Shown here piece after piece: positions 403 through 18,011 of a DNA stretch of 22,955 bases (the first letter of the stretch is position 1; each line of letters opens with the position of its first letter). The notes below the pieces were generated by a model. It saw only the letters and a list, made by a program, of their open reading frames with translations. It did not search any database and was not told where the DNA came from. This DNA comes from a virus: positions 1-22,955 of IMG/VR virus record IMGVR_UViG_3300021964_000573. One strand, given 5' to 3'. The position numbers and the translations under genes are program-made.

Positions 403-433
403 GAGTTTGTTAGTTCTCAAAAAAAACTAACAA
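403..433 (+). promoter_or_regulatory. Leader hairpin / H-type pseudoknot abutting the ribosome site of gene 445
   Basis: An 8-bp stem TTGTTAGT (407-414) / ACTAACAA (426-433) ends directly against GGAG. A second short stem GAG (403-405) / CTC (416-418) would place the first strand in its loop, giving an H-type pseudoknot with one-nucleotide connectors and a 7-A loop. The same layout recurs at 18018-18044 with a different stem. It could tune translation or protect the 5' end of the mRNA. Confidence 0.45.
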
Positions 434-444
434 GGAGAAACAAA

Positions 445-4048: not shown

Positions 4049-4066
4049 AGTATGGAGAAACAAATT

Positions 4067-4240
4067 ATGGATAACGGATTAAGACTACAAAGGTTACTTA
4101 AAGAAGGATTCAAAGGTTGGAGAATAATAAAATCTCAAAGAGAATTTGTAATGCAAGAATTAGAAATTTCTCAAGAACAACTTTTAGAATCAAATGCAAA
4201 TTTATTGCTAAGACTAAAACAAAAGGTAGGTGCAAAGTAA
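4067..4240 (+). CDS. Small helical protein, unknown (57 aa)
   Basis: The start is placed at the second ATG (4067) because GGAGAAACAAAT at 4054-4065 is then a normally spaced ribosome site of the same form as at genes 445, 6784, 7209 and 17706. An ATG at 4052 that begins inside this site would add five residues and could only serve as a near-leaderless start. The product (MDNGLRLQRLLKEGFKGWRI, ending LLLRLKQKVGAK) is helical and basic, with no recognisable domain. Its last base is the first of the next gene's ATG. The 12-nt string GGAGAAACAAAT is the longest perfect match to the candidate small RNA. Confidence 0.6.
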   Translation: MDNGLRLQRLLKEGFKGWRIIKSQREFVMQELEISQEQLLESNANLLLRLKQKVGAK

Positions 4241-6770: not shown

Positions 6771-6783
6771 AGGAGAAACAACA

Positions 6784-7161
6784 ATGGTTAGAAATAAAAA
6801 GTTCAACGAGGAAGCAGTAACAGAAGAAAGAGTTCATAACTTCTGGGCAAAGTTTCAAAAAGCAGTTAATAATTTAAATGCTTGTACTAGAAGTGAGCAT
6901 AGCAGCATACCAGAATATTTTGCTCATAACTTTATAAATGTAATTCCTAGAGAAGGTGGAATTAGCAAATGTAAGTTTATGCAAACAAGTTTCAAATTAG
7001 GTTACTTGCAAAAAAGATTTGGTATGGAAAAAACACACTATGTAGTAAACATCAAAAAAGATATTGAGCCATTTGTAGCAAGTAGAGTGCTTTACAAATT
7101 AGCTAACATCTTAGATGAAAAGACACCTTGTAAAGTAGAACACGAAGAAATTATGTTATAA
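6784..7161 (+). CDS. Unknown phage protein (125 aa)
   Basis: The start is ATG 6784, behind AGGAGAAACAACA. An in-frame ATG 51 nt upstream would translate through the leader hairpin and ribosome site. The protein (MVRNKKFNEEAVTEERVHNF, then WAKFQKAVNNLNACTR) looks alpha/beta with a basic start. Residues about 40-75 (PEYFAHNFINVIPREGGISK) may be a compact domain. It has no catalytic signature, signal peptide or membrane segment. It lies between terminase and portal but has its own promoter of the type used by non-virion genes, so it may not be a structural protein. Confidence 0.65.
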   Translation: MVRNKKFNEEAVTEERVHNFWAKFQKAVNNLNACTRSEHSSIPEYFAHNFINVIPREGGISKCKFMQTSFKLGYLQKRFGMEKTHYVVNIKKDIEPFVASRVLYKLANILDEKTPCKVEHEEIML

Positions 7162-7166
7162 AAAAT

Positions 7167-7195
7167 TAGGGTTAGCCAGTCCCTACAAAACTGGC
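7167..7195 (+). promoter_or_regulatory. H-type pseudoknot candidate abutting the ribosome site of gene 7209
   Basis: Stem 1 is TAGGG (7167-7171) with CCCTA (7181-7185). Stem 2 is GCCAGT (7175-7180) with ACTGGC (7190-7195). Stem 2's first strand is inside stem 1's loop and touches stem 1's second strand with no gap, so the helices can stack. Connecting loops are TTA and CAAA. AAGGAGAAAC follows directly. This is the most convincing of the leader pseudoknots. Confidence 0.5.
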
Positions 7196-7208
7196 AAGGA
7201 GAAACGAT

Positions 7209-7460
7209 ATGACAGATATAAGAATACAATTACAAGAAATAGTAAATGGAACTAGAAGAAGAATATCTAGTTTGAATGATTTAAGAAGGTGGGTAAGAGC
7301 AAATAATTTTAATATAGTTTGCGACAACCTTAATTATTTGATAGTAGATGTTGCTGGTAGAGATAGCAATGTTTGGTTGGACAACTTGCCTTTTGGTAGG
7401 TCATGCGATAGATTTGCTGCACAAGCATTGTTGGATGATTTAGAATTGAGAGGTGTATAA
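7209..7460 (+). CDS. Unknown phage protein (83 aa)
   Basis: Starts at ATG 7209 behind AAGGAGAAACGAT, immediately downstream of a pseudoknot-like leader. The sequence (MTDIRIQLQEIVNGTRRRIS, then SLNDLRRWVRANNFNIVCDN) has a basic helix followed by short strands (YLIVDVAG, NVWLDNL), so a small alpha/beta fold is plausible. Its TAA overlaps the next ATG (TAATG), so the two are coupled. Function is not recognised; it lacks catalytic or metal motifs. Confidence 0.6.
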   Translation: MTDIRIQLQEIVNGTRRRISSLNDLRRWVRANNFNIVCDNLNYLIVDVAGRDSNVWLDNLPFGRSCDRFAAQALLDDLELRGV

Positions 7461-7732
7461 TGGGATATTTTTCAGAACTACAAATAAACATGGATGAGGA
7501 ACAACTTATGCCAGTACAATCGTTGCCTAAAGAATTTAAAATATTAGCAATGAGAATATGTGATGATGATTATAATTTAACACCGATACAAAGAGGATTG
7601 GTTTTATATAGAGCACAATGTATCTTGCAGGACTATAATAAGCTTCATAACGAATCAAAAAAAATAAATGAAGTAAAAGTCTTATATCAAAGGATTGTAG
7701 ATAATCTTTGCAATGAATACGAAGTAAGCTAA
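7460..7732 (+). CDS. Unknown small helical protein (90 aa)
   Basis: Translationally coupled to gene 7209 through a 1-nt stop/start overlap. The protein begins MGYFSELQINMDEEQLMPVQ and is mostly helical with mixed charge (FKILAMRICDDDYNLTPIQR, CILQDYNKLHNESKKINEVK). It carries no known motif. Its last codons contain the -35 and -10 candidates for the small RNA that begins 8-10 nt after its stop. Confidence 0.6.
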   Translation: MGYFSELQINMDEEQLMPVQSLPKEFKILAMRICDDDYNLTPIQRGLVLYRAQCILQDYNKLHNESKKINEVKVLYQRIVDNLCNEYEVS

Positions 7733-7735
7733 ACT
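7708..7735 (+). promoter_or_regulatory. Candidate promoter of the 7740 RNA (TTGCAA, 16 nt, TAAACT)
   Basis: TTGCAA (7708-7713) and TAAACT (7730-7735) predict a start at about 7742, which is the base of the long stem. Each box matches consensus at four of six positions, so the call is modest and rests mainly on the fit with the RNA's 5' end. Confidence 0.35.
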
Positions 7736-7739
7736 ATTT

Positions 7740-7811
7740 GAGAGAGTGGTCAGTTTATCCATTTGTTTCTCCGAACAAAAGACCAAACATCACCTTGACC
7801 ACTCTTTCTAT
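7740..7811 (+). ncRNA. Candidate phage small RNA complementary to GGAGAAAC ribosome sites
   Basis: Outer stem: 7740-7752 (GAGAGAGTGGTCA) pairs with 7796-7808 (TGACCACTCTTTC), 13 bp with one G-U. Inside is GTTT (7753-7756) / AAAC (7785-7788), then a hairpin TTTGTTT (7762-7768) / GAACAAA (7773-7779) with loop CTCC. A partly U-rich run follows (TTTCTATT). The string ATTTGTTTCTCC (7761-7772) is the perfect complement of GGAGAAACAAAT at gene 4067 (12 nt). It matches 11 nt at gene 445, 10 at genes 6784 and 17706 and 8 at gene 7209. An unpaired CUCC tip could nucleate on GGAG. An alternative is a plain terminator or processed 3' end of the 7209-7732 mRNA. Confidence 0.45.
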
Positions 7812-7839
7812 TGCATTAATACAATACTTCATTTAAAAT
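7811..7839 (+). promoter_or_regulatory. Candidate leaderless promoter of the head operon (TTGCAT, 17 nt, TAAAAT)
   Basis: TTGCAT (7811-7816), a 17-nt spacer and TAAAAT (7834-7839) predict a start at 7846-7847, the A of the portal ATG. No GGAG-like site lies before that ATG. A second -35/-10 option is TTGACC (7795) with TACAAT (7820), giving a 14-nt leader. Confidence 0.45.
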
Positions 7840-7846
7840 TTAGCAA

Positions 7847-10657
7847 ATGGCTATAATCGACTTAAAAGGTAAACAATACCAAGAACCAACAAAACCAAAT
7901 TTCAATGAATTAGCATCAAGCGACTATGGCTTGTATGCAAAAGGCGACATCTTACCATATAACCCAGATACCCTCGTAGGCAGAAGAGGATTCTATATGT
8001 ATGACCAAATGAGGATAGATGACCAAGTTAAAGCTTGTTTAACCCTCAAGAAGTTTGCTACATTAGCTCCAAGCTATCAAATTATTCCAGCTAGTGATGA
8101 TGAGCAAGATGTTGAGGTCGCTGAGTTTGTAGAATATTGCTTTAATAAAATGCAGGGTAATTTATCTGATAATCTTTATGAAATATTAACTGCACTTGAT
8201 TATGGCTTTTCAATCACAGAAATAAATTACAAAACATTTGATTCTGGAATCCATCAAGGAAAGATAGGACTTAAAAATCTTAAAACAAAAAGACCACATC
8301 ATTATCAGTTTGCAGTAGATGAATATTCTAATCTATTAAAAGATGGAATAGTTTATCAAGAAGGTGGTGCTGATAAAAAATACCCAGTAAATAAATTTTT
8401 AGTATTTAGTTATCAAAAAGAATTTGGCAATCACTTTGGAACATCAGACTTAAGACCAGCATATAGAGGTTATTGGTCAAAAGATGTTTTAATTAAGATG
8501 TGGAATATTTATTTGGAACGATTTGCTAACCCAACTGTTTTAGGAAGATATAAAACTAACGACCCAAGTGCAAGACAGAGTTTAAGAAATATTTTAGATA
8601 ACCTTACAGCTAAAACTTCTATTACTCACAGAATGGAAGAGTTTGATATTCAGTTATTAGAATCATCAAGAAATGCTACAGGCGATTTTGAAACTGCACT
8701 TAACTTCTACAACAAAGCAATAGCCAGAAGTATTTTAATTCCAGATAGATTAATGGCAGATGGTGAGACTGGAGCATATAGCCAAGCTAAGATTCATTTT
8801 GATGTTTTCTTATGGGTAATACAAAAGCTAAGAATGGATTTAGAAGAGAATGTAATGAACGAGCAATTAATTAGAAGATTAGTTGCTTATAACTTTTCTA
8901 ATGTTGAAGAATTACCTCACTTTAAATTTAACCCAATGACTGATGACCAAAGATTGCAACTTAATACTTTATTTATAGATGCAGTACAAAAAGGTGTTAT
9001 CAATCCAACACTAGAAGATGAAAACTTATTAAGAAAGAATTTAAACTTTCCAGAAAAAGAAAATCCAATAAAACCCGATAATCCAGAAGAAGATATTGAA
9101 GCAACTCCAGATGAAGAAGAAATAGAAGAAATATCTGAGAATAGTTATGCAGAAATAAATTTAAGACCAAGTGCAGGAATGGCAGCAGAAGCTGAGAAAG
9201 GATTAAAATGGAGAGCTGAGTTTGGTAGAGGTGGAACTCAAGTTGGAGCTGTAAGAGCCAATCAATTAAAAAGAAGAGAAAATTTATCTGCATCAACTGT
9301 AAGAAGAATGAATAGCTTTTTTGCTAGACATGAAGTAGATAAAAAAGCAGAGGGATTTAGACCCGGAGAAAAAGGATTTCCAAGCAATGGAAGAATAGCT
9401 TGGGCATTATGGGGTGGTGATGCAGGACAGACTTGGGCTAAAGCAAAATCAGCACAACTAGAAAGACAAGAAAATAATATCCTTGAATATAATCGTGATG
9501 AAGGTTTAAAAAATAAAGTAGAACAACATAACGAAGAATATGGCGATACAAAAACTAAAAGAGTTACACTTGGTATGCTTAAGACTGTTTATGATAGAGG
9601 TGTTGGTGCATACAGAACAAATCCAGCATCAGTTAGACCATCTGTTAAATCACCAGAGCAATGGGCTATGGCTAGAGTTAATTCTTTCCTTACAGCTTTA
9701 AGAACAGGAAGATTTAGAAGTGGTAAACATGATACTGATTTATTCCCAAAAGGTCATCCATTAAGTTCCAAGGATAATACAAAAGAATATAATTATAAAC
9801 CTAGTGGTGCAGAAAGAAGAGTGGATTTTAAAGTTGTAGGAAATCAGCTTGATACTTTAGAAGAAAACTTTTTAAACGAAACTAGAGATGTAATGATTAA
9901 ACAAAAAGATGCAGTAATTAAATATGTAGAAAATAAAATGAATCAAAACAAATTAGATTTTCAAGCTGTGGATAATTTAGAGCTTAAATTTAAAGGCGAG
10001 TTAAAGACTAAATTTCAAGAAAATTATGATTCTTCTTATCAAGAAGGATTAAAAGAATCCAGAAAGGAATTACCTAAAAAGTTTGCTACTGCTAAAGTAG
10101 GTATTGGTTTAACAGCACAAGAACTTCAGAGATATCTGCAATCTAAAGCTAGATTTGATGTAGCTGAAATTACAGCAAGATTAAATGCTAACTTAACTGA
10201 AGTATTATTAGATGGAATAAGAACAGGTAAATCTACATCACAAATTATTAAAGAAATTGAAACAACCTTTAATCCTTATACAGCAACAGGAACAGTCGCA
10301 GTTGGAGATAAAGTTGTTGAATCTTATAACCTCAGAACAATTACCAGAACTGCTACATTAGGTGCATATAATTCTGGCAGAAGAGCAATAGGAGAAGATA
10401 AAGACTTGGATGGGTTTGTATTAGGTTATAAACTTTCCCCTGTATTAGATGAGAGAACTTCTGATATTTGTCAGCTTATTGCACAATCAAATGTTCAAAT
10501 ACCTATAGAAGATAAAGAAAGCATTGCTAGATTGACACCACCATTACATTTTAACTGTAGAACAATTTTAACATTTATAACACCAGAAGATGAGCCAGTT
10601 GCATTTACCAATTCAGAAACCTTAGGGCAACTCAAAGGAATGACTAAAGTTGTATGA
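7847..10657 (+). CDS. Portal - DUF5872/DUF5824-like insert - MuF head-morphogenesis fusion
   Basis: At 936 residues this is about twice a normal portal. Residues 1-430 are a DUF935 (Mu gp29-like) portal, seen in GRRGFYMYDQMRIDDQVKAC, LDYGFSITEINYK and the wing/stem region NPTVLGRYKTNDPSARQSLR. Residues about 442-540 contain SASTVRRMNSFFARHE and NGRIAWALWGGDAGQTWAKA, a DUF5872-like block. Residues about 561-638 contain TLGMLKTVYDRGVGAYRT and QWAMARVNSFLTALRTGR, a DUF5824-like block. Residues about 753-935 are a MuF (Mu gp30-like) minor head domain ending in SPVLDERTSDICQ and PPLHFNCRT. No frameshift is visible between the parts. It opens the head operon and lacks a ribosome site at its ATG. 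Confidence 0.82.
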   Translation: MAIIDLKGKQYQEPTKPNFNELASSDYGLYAKGDILPYNPDTLVGRRGFYMYDQMRIDDQVKACLTLKKFATLAPSYQIIPASDDEQDVEVAEFVEYCFNKMQGNLSDNLYEILTALDYGFSITEINYKTFDSGIHQGKIGLKNLKTKRPHHYQFAVDEYSNLLKDGIVYQEGGADKKYPVNKFLVFSYQKEFGNHFGTSDLRPAYRGYWSKDVLIKMWNIYLERFANPTVLGRYKTNDPSARQSLRNILDNLTAKTSITHRMEEFDIQLLESSRNATGDFETALNFYNKAIARSILIPDRLMADGETGAYSQAKIHFDVFLWVIQKLRMDLEENVMNEQLIRRLVAYNFSNVEELPHFKFNPMTDDQRLQLNTLFIDAVQKGVINPTLEDENLLRKNLNFPEKENPIKPDNPEEDIEATPDEEEIEEISENSYAEINLRPSAGMAAEAEKGLKWRAEFGRGGTQVGAVRANQLKRRENLSASTVRRMNSFFARHEVDKKAEGFRPGEKGFPSNGRIAWALWGGDAGQTWAKAKSAQLERQENNILEYNRDEGLKNKVEQHNEEYGDTKTKRVTLGMLKTVYDRGVGAYRTNPASVRPSVKSPEQWAMARVNSFLTALRTGRFRSGKHDTDLFPKGHPLSSKDNTKEYNYKPSGAERRVDFKVVGNQLDTLEENFLNETRDVMIKQKDAVIKYVENKMNQNKLDFQAVDNLELKFKGELKTKFQENYDSSYQEGLKESRKELPKKFATAKVGIGLTAQELQRYLQSKARFDVAEITARLNANLTEVLLDGIRTGKSTSQIIKEIETTFNPYTATGTVAVGDKVVESYNLRTITRTATLGAYNSGRRAIGEDKDLDGFVLGYKLSPVLDERTSDICQLIAQSNVQIPIEDKESIARLTPPLHFNCRTILTFITPEDEPVAFTNSETLGQLKGMTKVV
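10127..10140 (+). repeat. Dispersed motif copy CAGAGATATCTGCA
   Basis: 14 nt identical to the copies at 1977 and 6021, here read CAG AGA TAT CTG CA(A) within the portal fusion. Confidence 0.45.
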
Positions 10658-14120: not shown

Positions 14121-14651
14121 ATGAGTAACATAGAGAAATGGCAACCAACACAATATCCAGATTATTTAGTATCTAACAAAGGTCGTGTTAAATCCCTTAA
14201 ATATACTAAGGGTCAACATTTTAGACTTTTATCACAGAATCCAGATAAGAATGGATATTTTTGTGTTACCTTATTTCCAGACAAAAAATATATAAAAGCA
14301 AAAGTTCATAGATTAGTTGCACAAGCTTTTTGTAAAGGTAAGTCAGAAGAAAAGAAATGGGCATTACATAAAGATGGAAACAATCAAAACAACAATGCTA
14401 GTAATTTATATTGGGGTAGTCCTTATGATAATTTTAGGGATATGCTTTTGCACGGCAGGGCTAAAAATTTGTGGACATCTAAAAAGAATGTTGCGAGAAA
14501 ACTTAAAATACAATCAGTAAGAAGAATAAAAAGAATCTTAAAAGAAGATAAATCAAGAGGTGTGCAATCTCGTTTAGCGAGAGAATATAATGTAGCACCT
14601 AAAACAATATCAGATATAAAGGTAGGTAAATCATGGCAAAACATAGTTTAG
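14121..14651 (+). CDS. HNH homing endonuclease (NUMOD4-HNH-helix-turn-helix)
   Basis: 176 residues. Residues 1-30 (EKWQPTQYPDYLVSNKGRVK) are a NUMOD4 DNA-binding motif. Residues about 55-105 are the HNH core, with KVHRLVAQAFC, ALHKDGNNQNNNASNLYWGS and DNFRDM, including the His and Asn residues expected for the beta-beta-alpha metal site. The C-terminus (SVRRIKRILKED, SRLAREYNVAPKTISDIKVG) is a helix-turn-helix. Such free-standing enzymes cut phage DNA at a homing site and spread by repair. Its 3' end overlaps the glycosyltransferase gene by 19 nt, so it may have been inserted in front of it. No ribosome site is seen. Confidence 0.82.
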   Translation: MSNIEKWQPTQYPDYLVSNKGRVKSLKYTKGQHFRLLSQNPDKNGYFCVTLFPDKKYIKAKVHRLVAQAFCKGKSEEKKWALHKDGNNQNNNASNLYWGSPYDNFRDMLLHGRAKNLWTSKKNVARKLKIQSVRRIKRILKEDKSRGVQSRLAREYNVAPKTISDIKVGKSWQNIV

Positions 14652-17491
14652 ACATTGCAATTTTTTGTGCAGGTATGGAAGTAAATCCAGATACTTTAAA
14701 AACTAAATCTTTAGGTGGAAGTGAAACTGCTGGAGTTAGTATGGCTCATGAATTAGCAAAAAGAGGACATCATGTTCTTTTGTTTTGTAACACCACCAAA
14801 GAAGGAAAGCATGATGGAGTACAATATGTTCATGTAAATAACTTTGAAGGATTTGCAAAGAATTGTCCTCATGATGTTCTAATTGGTCAAAGAATCCCAG
14901 AAGTATTTAGAGGTAATTTAAAATCTAAAATAAATATTCTCTGGCAACATGATGTTGCTTTAAAAAGCCAACGACAAAATTTTCATGGGTCATTATGGAA
15001 CATAGATAAAGTATTTTGTTTAAGTGATTGGCAAATAGAACAATACAAAGAAATCTATCAAATAGATTCTGATGAACTATTTTATAAAACTAGAAACGGC
15101 ATAAAGCTAATTCCACAACCAGATAATTCTAAAAGACAAAATAAAAGATTAGTTTATACAAACCGACCAGAAAGAGGTCTTGATAATTTGCTATTTAACA
15201 TTATGCCAGAATTATGGAAGCATGATAAAGAAATAGAATTATGCCTTGCTGGATATGATAATACATCACCTCAAATGAAACCATTTTACGATATGTGTTA
15301 TGGCAAAGTTGCAGAATATCAAAAGCAAGGATTTAAGATTGCTCATCTTGGAGCATTAAATAAAAACGAACTTTACGAACTTTATAAGACTTGTAGATTG
15401 TTTGTTTATCCTACAGCATTTCATGAAACAAGTTGTATAACTGCAATGGAAACTCAGATGACTGGAGTCCCAATGATAACATCTCACATTGGAGCATTGC
15501 CAGAAACTTTATGCAATGATGGTAACAAATTAATATTTGGAGATTATAAAAGCAATCCAGATTACAATAGAGAATTTGCAAAGCTAACAATTAACCTTTT
15601 AAACAACCAAGATGATATTGATAAGATGCAAGAATTTGGATATAAGAAAAGTAAAGAGTTTGCTTGGTCAGATTTAGCTGAAGAATGGGAAGAATTATTT
15701 ATTAAGATATTCCAAGAGAAAACAGCTAATAAAGAAAGGTTAGTCAAGCATTTATACGAAAGGGAAGATATTATGGCTATCAAACACCTCGATAGAAGCG
15801 ATTTAAGCCATTATAAGGACATCAAGGAACATTATGGGTATACAGACTCAAAAGAAGAATATAAAGCCAAATATGAAGCTCTAGGGCAGGAATATGCTGA
15901 TATTGAAACTAATATAGAATTAAGGAATTATGCAAGGACACAATTATCATTTAAAGAAATGCAGACATATCTGCAAGAAAACAAAATAGATGCACCAAAA
16001 GTATTAGATTTTGCTTCTGGCATTTGCAATGAATCAATCATAATGGCTAACAATTTTAATGCAGAAGTTGATGCAGTAAATATATCTGATGCTGAACACG
16101 AAGTTGCAGATAAGATGATTGAGAAGTTTTTAGATAAAGGTGAAGTAAATCAAATAACTGCTTCTGACCCTAACGATTTAAAAAAGCACTATGACATTTT
16201 ATTCTTAGGTGAGATATTAGAACATCAACCAAAGCCAGAAGAGTTTATGAATGAGTTCGATAAAGTTCTTAAAAAAGATTCTTTAGTTGTGATAACAGTT
16301 CCATTTGGTCTATGGGAAGATGAAAGACATGCACATCTTTGGAATTATGAAAGACAAGATTTATCTCAGATGTTTAAAGATAAAAAAGATTTAAAAATCG
16401 CAATGGTTTCTGGTGGAATAAATCAGAACAAACAGCAGACAGTTGGATGGTGGGTAGTAACTTACAAACAAAATAGTAAAACTGTAAATCCAATAAACAT
16501 GGAACGAAAACTGCTAATACAGAATCCAAGAGAAACAGTTTCAGTTTGTATGATAGTAAAGAACGAAGAAAATATGTTACACAGATGTTTGAAATCAGTA
16601 CAATCATTTGCTGATGAAATCATAATCAATGATACTGGCTCAACAGATTCAACAATAGAAATTGCAAAACAATATGGAGCTAAAATAATAAATGGTGAAT
16701 CTCCACTTGAGATAGGATTTGATGAAGCAAGAAACGAATCTATAAAACATGCAAAGTCAGATTGGATATTCTGGTTAGATGCAGATGAAGAGGTAGTCGA
16801 CAATACATTCTTACTAAAATATTTACGACCAAATATGTTTGCAGGATATTCTCTAAAGCAACATCATTTTACAATTGATGCTGGAGATACAAAAGTAGAT
16901 ACACCAGTAAGACTTTTTAGAAATGGAAGGACTGTAAGATTTTATGGATTTGTTCATGAGCATCCAGAAAGAGAAGGAATGATGAATGAAGGTGTCGGTA
17001 CAAGTACATTACTTGGTGATGTAAACATTGCACATGATGGTTACTTCTCAGAAAATAGAAGGCGAGGAAGATTCCAAAGAAATATAAATCTTATGTTTAA
17101 AGAATATGAAAAACATCCAAACAGACTTCTTACAAAATTTTTAATGATGAGAGATTTTGTTCACATTGCTAGATACGAGAAAGAACAAAACAATGGACAG
17201 CTAACACCTTATGCAATTCAAGGACTAGAAAAAGGAATTGAAATTTATAAGGAAGCCTTTTTAGAAAAGCCAAGTAATTATTCTGATGAAGCATTAATGT
17301 TCTACTCAGAAATTTTAGCACAACTTGATAGAGGTCTTGAGTACAGATGGAATTTAAATATTGGTAAACAAAATGTAATGCCAGAAAAGCAAGACCAAGT
17401 CGCAAGGTTTGAAAGTCCAGAAGATTTTGTAAAGTTTTTAAAAATGAAAGCAACGGAAAAAGAAGAACCACATACAGGAATTTTCGTATAA
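14633..17491 (+). CDS. Glycosyltransferase (GT4) - methyltransferase - glycosyltransferase (GT2) fusion
   Basis: 952 residues. Residues 1-375 are a GT-B retaining glycosyltransferase: LGGSETAGVSMAHELAKRGH, TNRPERGLDNLL, and the donor-site segment AFHETSCITAMETQMTGVPM near 262. Residues about 380-615 are a class I SAM methyltransferase, with motif I VLDFASGICNES near 456 and DILFLGEILEH near 522. Residues about 632-952 are a GT-A glycosyltransferase, with VSVCMIVKNEENMLHRCLKS, NDTGSTDST and the metal site FWLDADEE near 712. AAAGGGAAG before an in-frame ATG at 15773 could also start a methyltransferase-GT2 form. Lying between head and tail genes, it may build a methylated glycan on the virion or host surface. 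Donor and acceptor are unknown. Confidence 0.8.
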   Translation: MAKHSLDIAIFCAGMEVNPDTLKTKSLGGSETAGVSMAHELAKRGHHVLLFCNTTKEGKHDGVQYVHVNNFEGFAKNCPHDVLIGQRIPEVFRGNLKSKINILWQHDVALKSQRQNFHGSLWNIDKVFCLSDWQIEQYKEIYQIDSDELFYKTRNGIKLIPQPDNSKRQNKRLVYTNRPERGLDNLLFNIMPELWKHDKEIELCLAGYDNTSPQMKPFYDMCYGKVAEYQKQGFKIAHLGALNKNELYELYKTCRLFVYPTAFHETSCITAMETQMTGVPMITSHIGALPETLCNDGNKLIFGDYKSNPDYNREFAKLTINLLNNQDDIDKMQEFGYKKSKEFAWSDLAEEWEELFIKIFQEKTANKERLVKHLYEREDIMAIKHLDRSDLSHYKDIKEHYGYTDSKEEYKAKYEALGQEYADIETNIELRNYARTQLSFKEMQTYLQENKIDAPKVLDFASGICNESIIMANNFNAEVDAVNISDAEHEVADKMIEKFLDKGEVNQITASDPNDLKKHYDILFLGEILEHQPKPEEFMNEFDKVLKKDSLVVITVPFGLWEDERHAHLWNYERQDLSQMFKDKKDLKIAMVSGGINQNKQQTVGWWVVTYKQNSKTVNPINMERKLLIQNPRETVSVCMIVKNEENMLHRCLKSVQSFADEIIINDTGSTDSTIEIAKQYGAKIINGESPLEIGFDEARNESIKHAKSDWIFWLDADEEVVDNTFLLKYLRPNMFAGYSLKQHHFTIDAGDTKVDTPVRLFRNGRTVRFYGFVHEHPEREGMMNEGVGTSTLLGDVNIAHDGYFSENRRRGRFQRNINLMFKEYEKHPNRLLTKFLMMRDFVHIARYEKEQNNGQLTPYAIQGLEKGIEIYKEAFLEKPSNYSDEALMFYSEILAQLDRGLEYRWNLNIGKQNVMPEKQDQVARFESPEDFVKFLKMKATEKEEPHTGIFV

Positions 17492-17607: not shown

Positions 17608-17705
17608 TATAGCATGATGAAGTTATTAATTATTACACAACAATTACTAGGTTACCAAAGCCAAATTTACAATGTAGTTGTTAGCTTTATCTAAGGAGAA
17701 ACAAG

Positions 17706-18011
17706 ATGAAAGATTTTTTTGGAAGCACAGTCGAGGACTACAAGGCAAAAATGCAAGGATATAAAGAAAGCATTGTTCTTTATAACGAGTGGTTAAATAG
17801 TAAATTAGAAAAAATTTTTGACCCTAGCAAATCTTTGCAAAGCGATGTTTTTACAAAAAAAGGTAAGCTCAGAGCAAAATATCTTAAACAAATAGCAATG
17901 TATAAAAGATGGATTGCAATGGAAAAAGATTCCATTAATTTCTGTATAGATATGATGAAAGGCAACAGATTCAAATATACAGATGAAGATTTAGAAACAA
18001 TGTATAAATAA
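17706..18011 (+). CDS. Unknown helical protein (101 aa)
   Basis: Starts at ATG 17706 behind TAAGGAGAAACAAG, one of five GGAGAAAC sites. The protein is helical and Lys/Tyr-rich (MKDFFGSTVEDYKAKMQGYK, LYNEWLNSKLEKIFDP, YLKQIAMYKRWIAMEKDSIN). It has no metal site, signal peptide or membrane segment. Its promoter resembles the early promoter, including a shared upstream element, so this two-gene unit may be expressed with the early set although it lies among structural genes. Confidence 0.62.
   Translation: MKDFFGSTVEDYKAKMQGYKESIVLYNEWLNSKLEKIFDPSKSLQSDVFTKKGKLRAKYLKQIAMYKRWIAMEKDSINFCIDMMKGNRFKYTDEDLETMYK

Follow-up and report, generated by a model that had tools for sequence, protein, structure and literature searches.

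The window, the whole stretch of DNA analysed here, is a 22,955-base fragment of a phage, with genes for a replication initiator, an HNH nuclease, a terminase, a portal-MuF protein, a protease, the major capsid protein and tail proteins. Its late operon holds a NUMOD4/HNH homing-type endonuclease gene (14121-14651), followed by a glycosyltransferase-methyltransferase-glycosyltransferase fusion (14633-17491). The nearest named phages are remote, TerL matching Pelagibacter phage HTVC115P at 36%. A host search over genome contigs gave no close match: the portal had none, and the major capsid protein reached only 35-37% identity. Relatives were gathered from IMG/VR by portal and major capsid searches over viral contigs, which returned portals at ∼60-82% identity as well as more distant relatives.

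Between the terminase gene and the portal gene lies an element that we propose encodes a small RNA. Members carrying it were identified through synteny and the loop core. It stands directly upstream of portal in the sampled members of one clade and occurs in 14 rows of the portal tree; in sister phages without it, terL is followed directly by portal. Three DNA patterns searched against viral contigs found the element only in this phage group, chance matches aside. The features at the locus are as follows.

7707-7735, plus strand: weak sigma-70-like promoter of the small RNA, TTTGCA (7707-7712), 17 bp, TAAACT (7730-7735); 8/12 consensus
7740-7814, plus strand: proposed small RNA, with an outer stem, a loop carrying an anti-ribosome-site motif and a short U-rich tail; from fold, conservation and stem covariation
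7740-7752, plus strand: 5′ arm of the outer stem, GAGAGAGTGGTCA; from fold and comparison of relatives
7765-7772, plus strand: loop core GTTTCTCC, the proposed seed; identical in 11 members of the main-loop type
7796-7808, plus strand: 3′ arm of the outer stem, TGACCACTCTTTC, then TATT, a weak terminator-like end; from fold
7811-7839, plus strand: head-operon promoter-like pair TTGCAT-17-TAAAAT, ending 7 bp short of the portal ATG, with a predicted leaderless mRNA; read from sequence
7847-10657, plus strand: portal fused to a head morphogenesis (MuF-like) domain, without a Shine-Dalgarno site; PHROG portal and head morphogenesis

Folding of 7735-7815 yields −24.2 kcal/mol (z −4.5); the outer stem has 13 bp, and a CUCC loop closes the apical hairpin. 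The stable fold described in a first-pass annotation, made from the window alone, is therefore real in the window, but its apical hairpin is particular to the window's own lineage and is absent from most others. The letters of the outer stem vary by lineage while pairing is kept. Over 13 lineages, 93% of cells are paired against 66% in shuffles, 9 of the 10 pairs show double changes (32 doubly changed cells, 8 in shuffles), and covariation is 0.80 compared with 0.25 in shuffles, with all slid registers failing. The stem alignment was made by hand and its arms were picked after looking; because of this hand alignment, the absolute covariation figures flatter the structure.

The loop core has a single plus-strand copy in the window and is unchanged in all 11 elements compared (the window, L001-L004, L009, L018-L020, L023 and L024). 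TTTG or TTG opens it in most main-loop-type members. The small RNA thus shows one of the features expected of a trans-acting antisense sRNA: its secondary structure is conserved and exposes a conserved seed. CUCC is followed by A, G or C in the nine lineages read, never by U, even though most targets read AAGGAG. The loop does not continue as CCUCCUU like the 16S 3′ end and is therefore not a general copy of the 16S anti-Shine-Dalgarno sequence; a general mimic of that kind was considered and rejected.

The ends of the RNA are less well defined. Promoter-like boxes had been read as placing the 5′ end at the stem base, and the pair listed above does end 4 bases 5′ of the stem, but its 8/12 matches fall below the 9/12 threshold of a standard scan. 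A TATAAT-like box lies at or near this position in most lineages. That transcription of the small RNA starts at this pair is inferred, not shown. An intrinsic terminator scan of the small-RNA end returned no match, with only UUUCUAUU around the stem end; as the U-tail is short and the scan empty, the small RNA may be part of a longer transcript. Rfam covariance models had no match in the window at gathering score, and a search of 7700-7860 up to E 10 gave no family (best E 4.3, all far below gathering scores). The C4 antisense RNA model RF01695 matched neither in the window at gathering score nor in 7700-7860 up to E 10.

The complement of the loop core, GGAGAAAC, occurs exactly five times on the plus strand of the window, in all five cases 3-5 nt 5′ of an ORF-opening ATG. 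Each site listed here rests on the count, the ORF and the duplex.

434-441, plus strand: target site of the 93-aa gene 445-726; 11 nt complementarity
4054-4061, plus strand: target site of the 57-aa gene 4067-4240; 12 nt complementarity
6772-6779, plus strand: target site of the 125-aa gene 6784-7161
7198-7205, plus strand: target site of the 83-aa gene 7209-7460
17695-17702, plus strand: target site of the 101-aa gene 17706-18011

Counts and ORF starts thus confirm what the first-pass annotation had read here, a unique loop core whose complement is five times a ribosome site, and the 12 and 11 nt of complementarity that it gave for 4054 and 434 hold as well. Over both strands, 0.63 copies would be expected by chance, and none of 100 dinucleotide shuffles reached six. 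Duplex scoring against controls was equally favourable: among 34 leaders of the window, the five GGAGAAAC sites take the top five ranks at −13.3 to −14.5 kcal/mol, and no random 7-mer joined to CUCC gave five such partners (0/1000). Shuffles of UUUGUUU equalled the native loop in 141/1000 cases, which is the recurrence rate of the native order itself, as seven distinct orders exist. That such duplexes arise only when the seven bases before CUCC stand in their native order counts against coincidence. The RNA thereby shows a further feature of such sRNAs, a seed whose complementarity to ribosome sites on several unlinked mRNAs exceeds chance.

Several target leaders also contain a hairpin that ends 2 nt 5′ of the Shine-Dalgarno site (window 405-433 and 7180-7197; L020 1420-1451 and 1660-1693; L047 2000-2025). 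The loops of these hairpins (TTCTC, TCTCC) could pair with the Shine-Dalgarno site itself, a possible second layer of control.

For comparison across phages, we counted ATG starts with GGAG 4-10 nt upstream. GGAGAAAC is found at 27 of 121 such starts in phages with the matching loop, at 0/20 in phages with a changed loop and at 0/168 in close relatives without the RNA; distant relatives have it at 2/325. Matching-loop phages differ from the changed-loop and RNA-less close relatives, which are similar in G+C and together give 0/188, with a Fisher p of 1.4e-12. This value overstates independence because several target leaders are mutually homologous. Certain leaders are recurrent cassettes (AACATCAAGGAGAAAC, ACTGGCAAGGAGAAAC), so the independent origins of GGAGAAAC starts number fewer than 27; many unrelated leaders are nonetheless among the targets. 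Nor is the site diagnostic by itself, since the unrelated Roseobacter phage CRP-1 has it at 3/29 starts. It is also present in the unrelated freshwater phages L031 and L033, and Pelagibacter phages have it at 1/103.

The earlier claim of target-site conservation beyond GGAG thus survives in part: among close relatives, GGAGAAAC starts are confined to matching-loop phages, but target-driven conservation of the bases beyond GGAGAAAC is not supported. In L020-22 the loop reads AAAAGTTTCTCC, but the targets of these phages still read GGAGAAACAAA or GGAGAAACGAA, and the bases past the 8-nt core do not covary there.

The 33 target genes, a set that includes extra loci without portal-leader sequence, can be sorted into 26 protein groups that are unrelated to one another and consist mostly of small orphan proteins. 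Pfam, PHROG and PADLOC scans of the targets gave almost no matches and recognised none as structural; one target is an amidoligase (PF12224). Near-identical proteins with swapped leaders retain GGAGAAAC (L004_734/L005_415 and L022_8586/L071_8195), as does L061_7448, a homolog of 17706-18011 at 47% identity, in a different leader. Target homologs in RNA-less phages lack the site, for example L024_1575 compared with L078 (84% identity, GGAGGAAACC). Some homologs inside the RNA-bearing group lack it too, among them the L009 and L002 homologs of WIN_434. Many target genes have promoters of the TTGACA-16-TATAAT type, two of which are perfect (L002 1037 and L022 8377).

In close relatives, nearly the same terL-portal leader stands before unrelated small genes (window 6772-7161, L001 698, L004 350 and L005 28). 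The leader between terL and portal thus stays fixed while the gene cassettes behind it are swapped.

In one clade, comprising L007, L011 and L015, the stem is kept and the loops are other pyrimidine-rich sequences. These RNAs lie at L007 150-200, L011 4440-4510 and L015 1210-1280, with loops reading UUCUUCCUUU or AUUCCUUCC. A search of the available leaders in the changed-loop lineages for complements of these loops found none enriched, and retargeting is therefore not shown. In the portal tree, the phages with the RNA make up a single clade (100/98); those with a changed loop make up a clade as well (100/100), placed inside the matching-loop group with moderate support (87/60); the matching-loop group is whole in 10% of bootstrap trees. 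Because the changed-loop phages are one nested clade, the loop change and the absence of GGAGAAAC leaders coincide once. The co-variation of loop and leader for which the first-pass annotation had looked to relatives is thus borne out in that a changed loop goes with the absence of GGAGAAAC leaders in one well-supported clade, but not for any base past the 8 nt. As far as sequences can tell, loop and leader did change together, yet in a single event that left the new loops without visible phage targets.

The energy of anti-Shine-Dalgarno pairing at the portal start is just −1.5 kcal/mol. Boxes equivalent to the promoter-like pair of the head operon occur 7-10 bp 5′ of the portal ATG in 12 related loci, covering all lineages listed, and mostly take the form TTG..., 16-18 bp, TATAAT/TAAAAT/TAAACT. 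With such a pair 7-10 bp from the ATG and no Shine-Dalgarno site, we infer that the portal mRNA is leaderless and therefore exempt from the RNA; the predicted start of the head-operon mRNA is the portal ATG or a position shortly before it.

Taken together, we consider it likely that 7740-7814 encodes a phage antisense RNA acting in trans, one that would cover the ribosome sites of an early and accessory regulon. This trans-acting reading, already advanced in the first-pass annotation, is supported by stem covariation in 13 lineages, the fixed loop core and the loop-linked GGAGAAAC starts. At the level of sequence alone, the structure, the conservation of the loop, the enrichment of targets and the link between enrichment and loop are established. 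Production of the RNA, repression and its timing are inferred, in the absence of expression or interaction data.

The constant position directly upstream of portal and the weak terminator-like end would also suit a cis-acting leader or attenuator of the head operon (or a terminator of the terL/accessory operon), with a loop that responds to free ribosomes or early mRNAs, or to which a protein binds. We hold this to be unlikely: in all lineages a separate promoter-like pair between the element and the portal ATG leaves no leader, and a cis role gives no reason to expect GGAGAAAC at as many as five distant genes in one phage, or to expect that relatives lack it. Alternatively, the loop could be aimed at host mRNAs with GGAGAAAC, phage genes merely following host usage. 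Within the same phages, however, structural genes use GGAGATAA and GGAGAATA and accessory genes use GGAGAAAC, a separation that host-like usage would not produce. Such a host-directed RNA seems to us quite improbable, although host targets cannot be excluded while the host is unknown, and the lack of obvious phage targets in the changed-loop lineages speaks for it.

Two further readings fare worse. GGAGAAAC might be a common strong site in AT-rich phages that was spread by duplicated leader cassettes, the hairpin being an unrelated terminator; the recurrent cassettes and the CRP-1 count fit such a coincidence. It is largely refuted, and we give it very little weight, given the 0/188 in close relatives of similar G+C, the many unrelated leaders, a loop core that stays invariant amid a changing RNA, and the restriction of such duplexes to the native base order before CUCC. 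In the window and its nearest relatives L001 and L004, TTCGGAGAAACAAATGGAT on the minus strand could be read as the ribosome site and start codon of a minus-strand gene. Other lineages have no ATG there while stem and loop persist, which refutes this as a general explanation and leaves it with virtually no credence.

If the antisense reading is right, the covarying outer stem would present a fixed motif, UUUGUUUCUCC (core GUUUCUCC), unpaired or weakly paired. The core would pair in trans with GGAGAAAC, including the Shine-Dalgarno GGAG of early and accessory genes. Pairing over GGAG and AAAC would block 30S binding on the accessory genes, with specificity coming from the AAAC after GGAG, and the leaderless head operon would escape the RNA. 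We infer repression rather than activation because the pairing lies on the Shine-Dalgarno site itself, and the place of the RNA just ahead of the head operon suggests that it acts near the early-late switch. The most likely role would be to shut off accessory genes around late-gene turn-on, with one RNA silencing an entire gene set as particle building starts.

Most known early-to-late switches of phages act on transcription. A broader proposal, on which we are evenly divided, is an address system: unrelated incoming accessory genes carry or acquire the 8-nt tag GGAGAAAC, one RNA silences this changing set when late expression begins, and the structural operon escapes through its leaderless mRNA. 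If true, this would explain how accessory genes are exchanged without rewiring transcription. For metagenomes, it would also provide a sequence tag by which early and accessory phage genes without a known function could be found, and for uncultured phages an RNA-RNA pairing open to direct test.

A literature search, in which subscription journals were thinly covered, turned up no phage RNA for which many phage genes share a tag. In bacteria, Yfr1, the cuckoo/CcsR RNAs and the C-rich sRNAs of Firmicutes each face the ribosome sites of many mRNAs with one exposed pyrimidine motif. The window RNA resembles these in multi-target pairing at ribosome sites through a single exposed motif, but it is phage-encoded, has no Rfam match, avoids the CUCCU continuation and would draw its specificity from AAAC. 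Ranade and Poteete (1993), cited in PMC12197685, are said to have described sar of phage P22 as an antisense RNA that switches translation of the early gene ant during development. Like sar, the window RNA would be a phage antisense RNA blocking a phage ribosome site; sar targets one mRNA, whereas the window RNA is encoded in trans and has several genes as its proposed targets. Two short base-pairing phage RNAs that act in trans, lambda PreS and the sRNA of Vibrio phage VP882, are known chiefly for host or few-gene targets. For the window RNA, in contrast, the tag is phage-wide and common to genes that come and go. PreS and the VP882 sRNA are both cited in PMC12197685. The c4 antisense RNA of phages P1/P7 has loops that pair around the ant ribosome-binding site and block translation (PMC12197685). 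The likeness to c4 (RF01695) lies in a phage-encoded RNA that blocks a phage ribosome site; but c4 acts on ant, whereas the window RNA is matched, by way of a single 8-nt tag, to many genes that are neither linked nor related.
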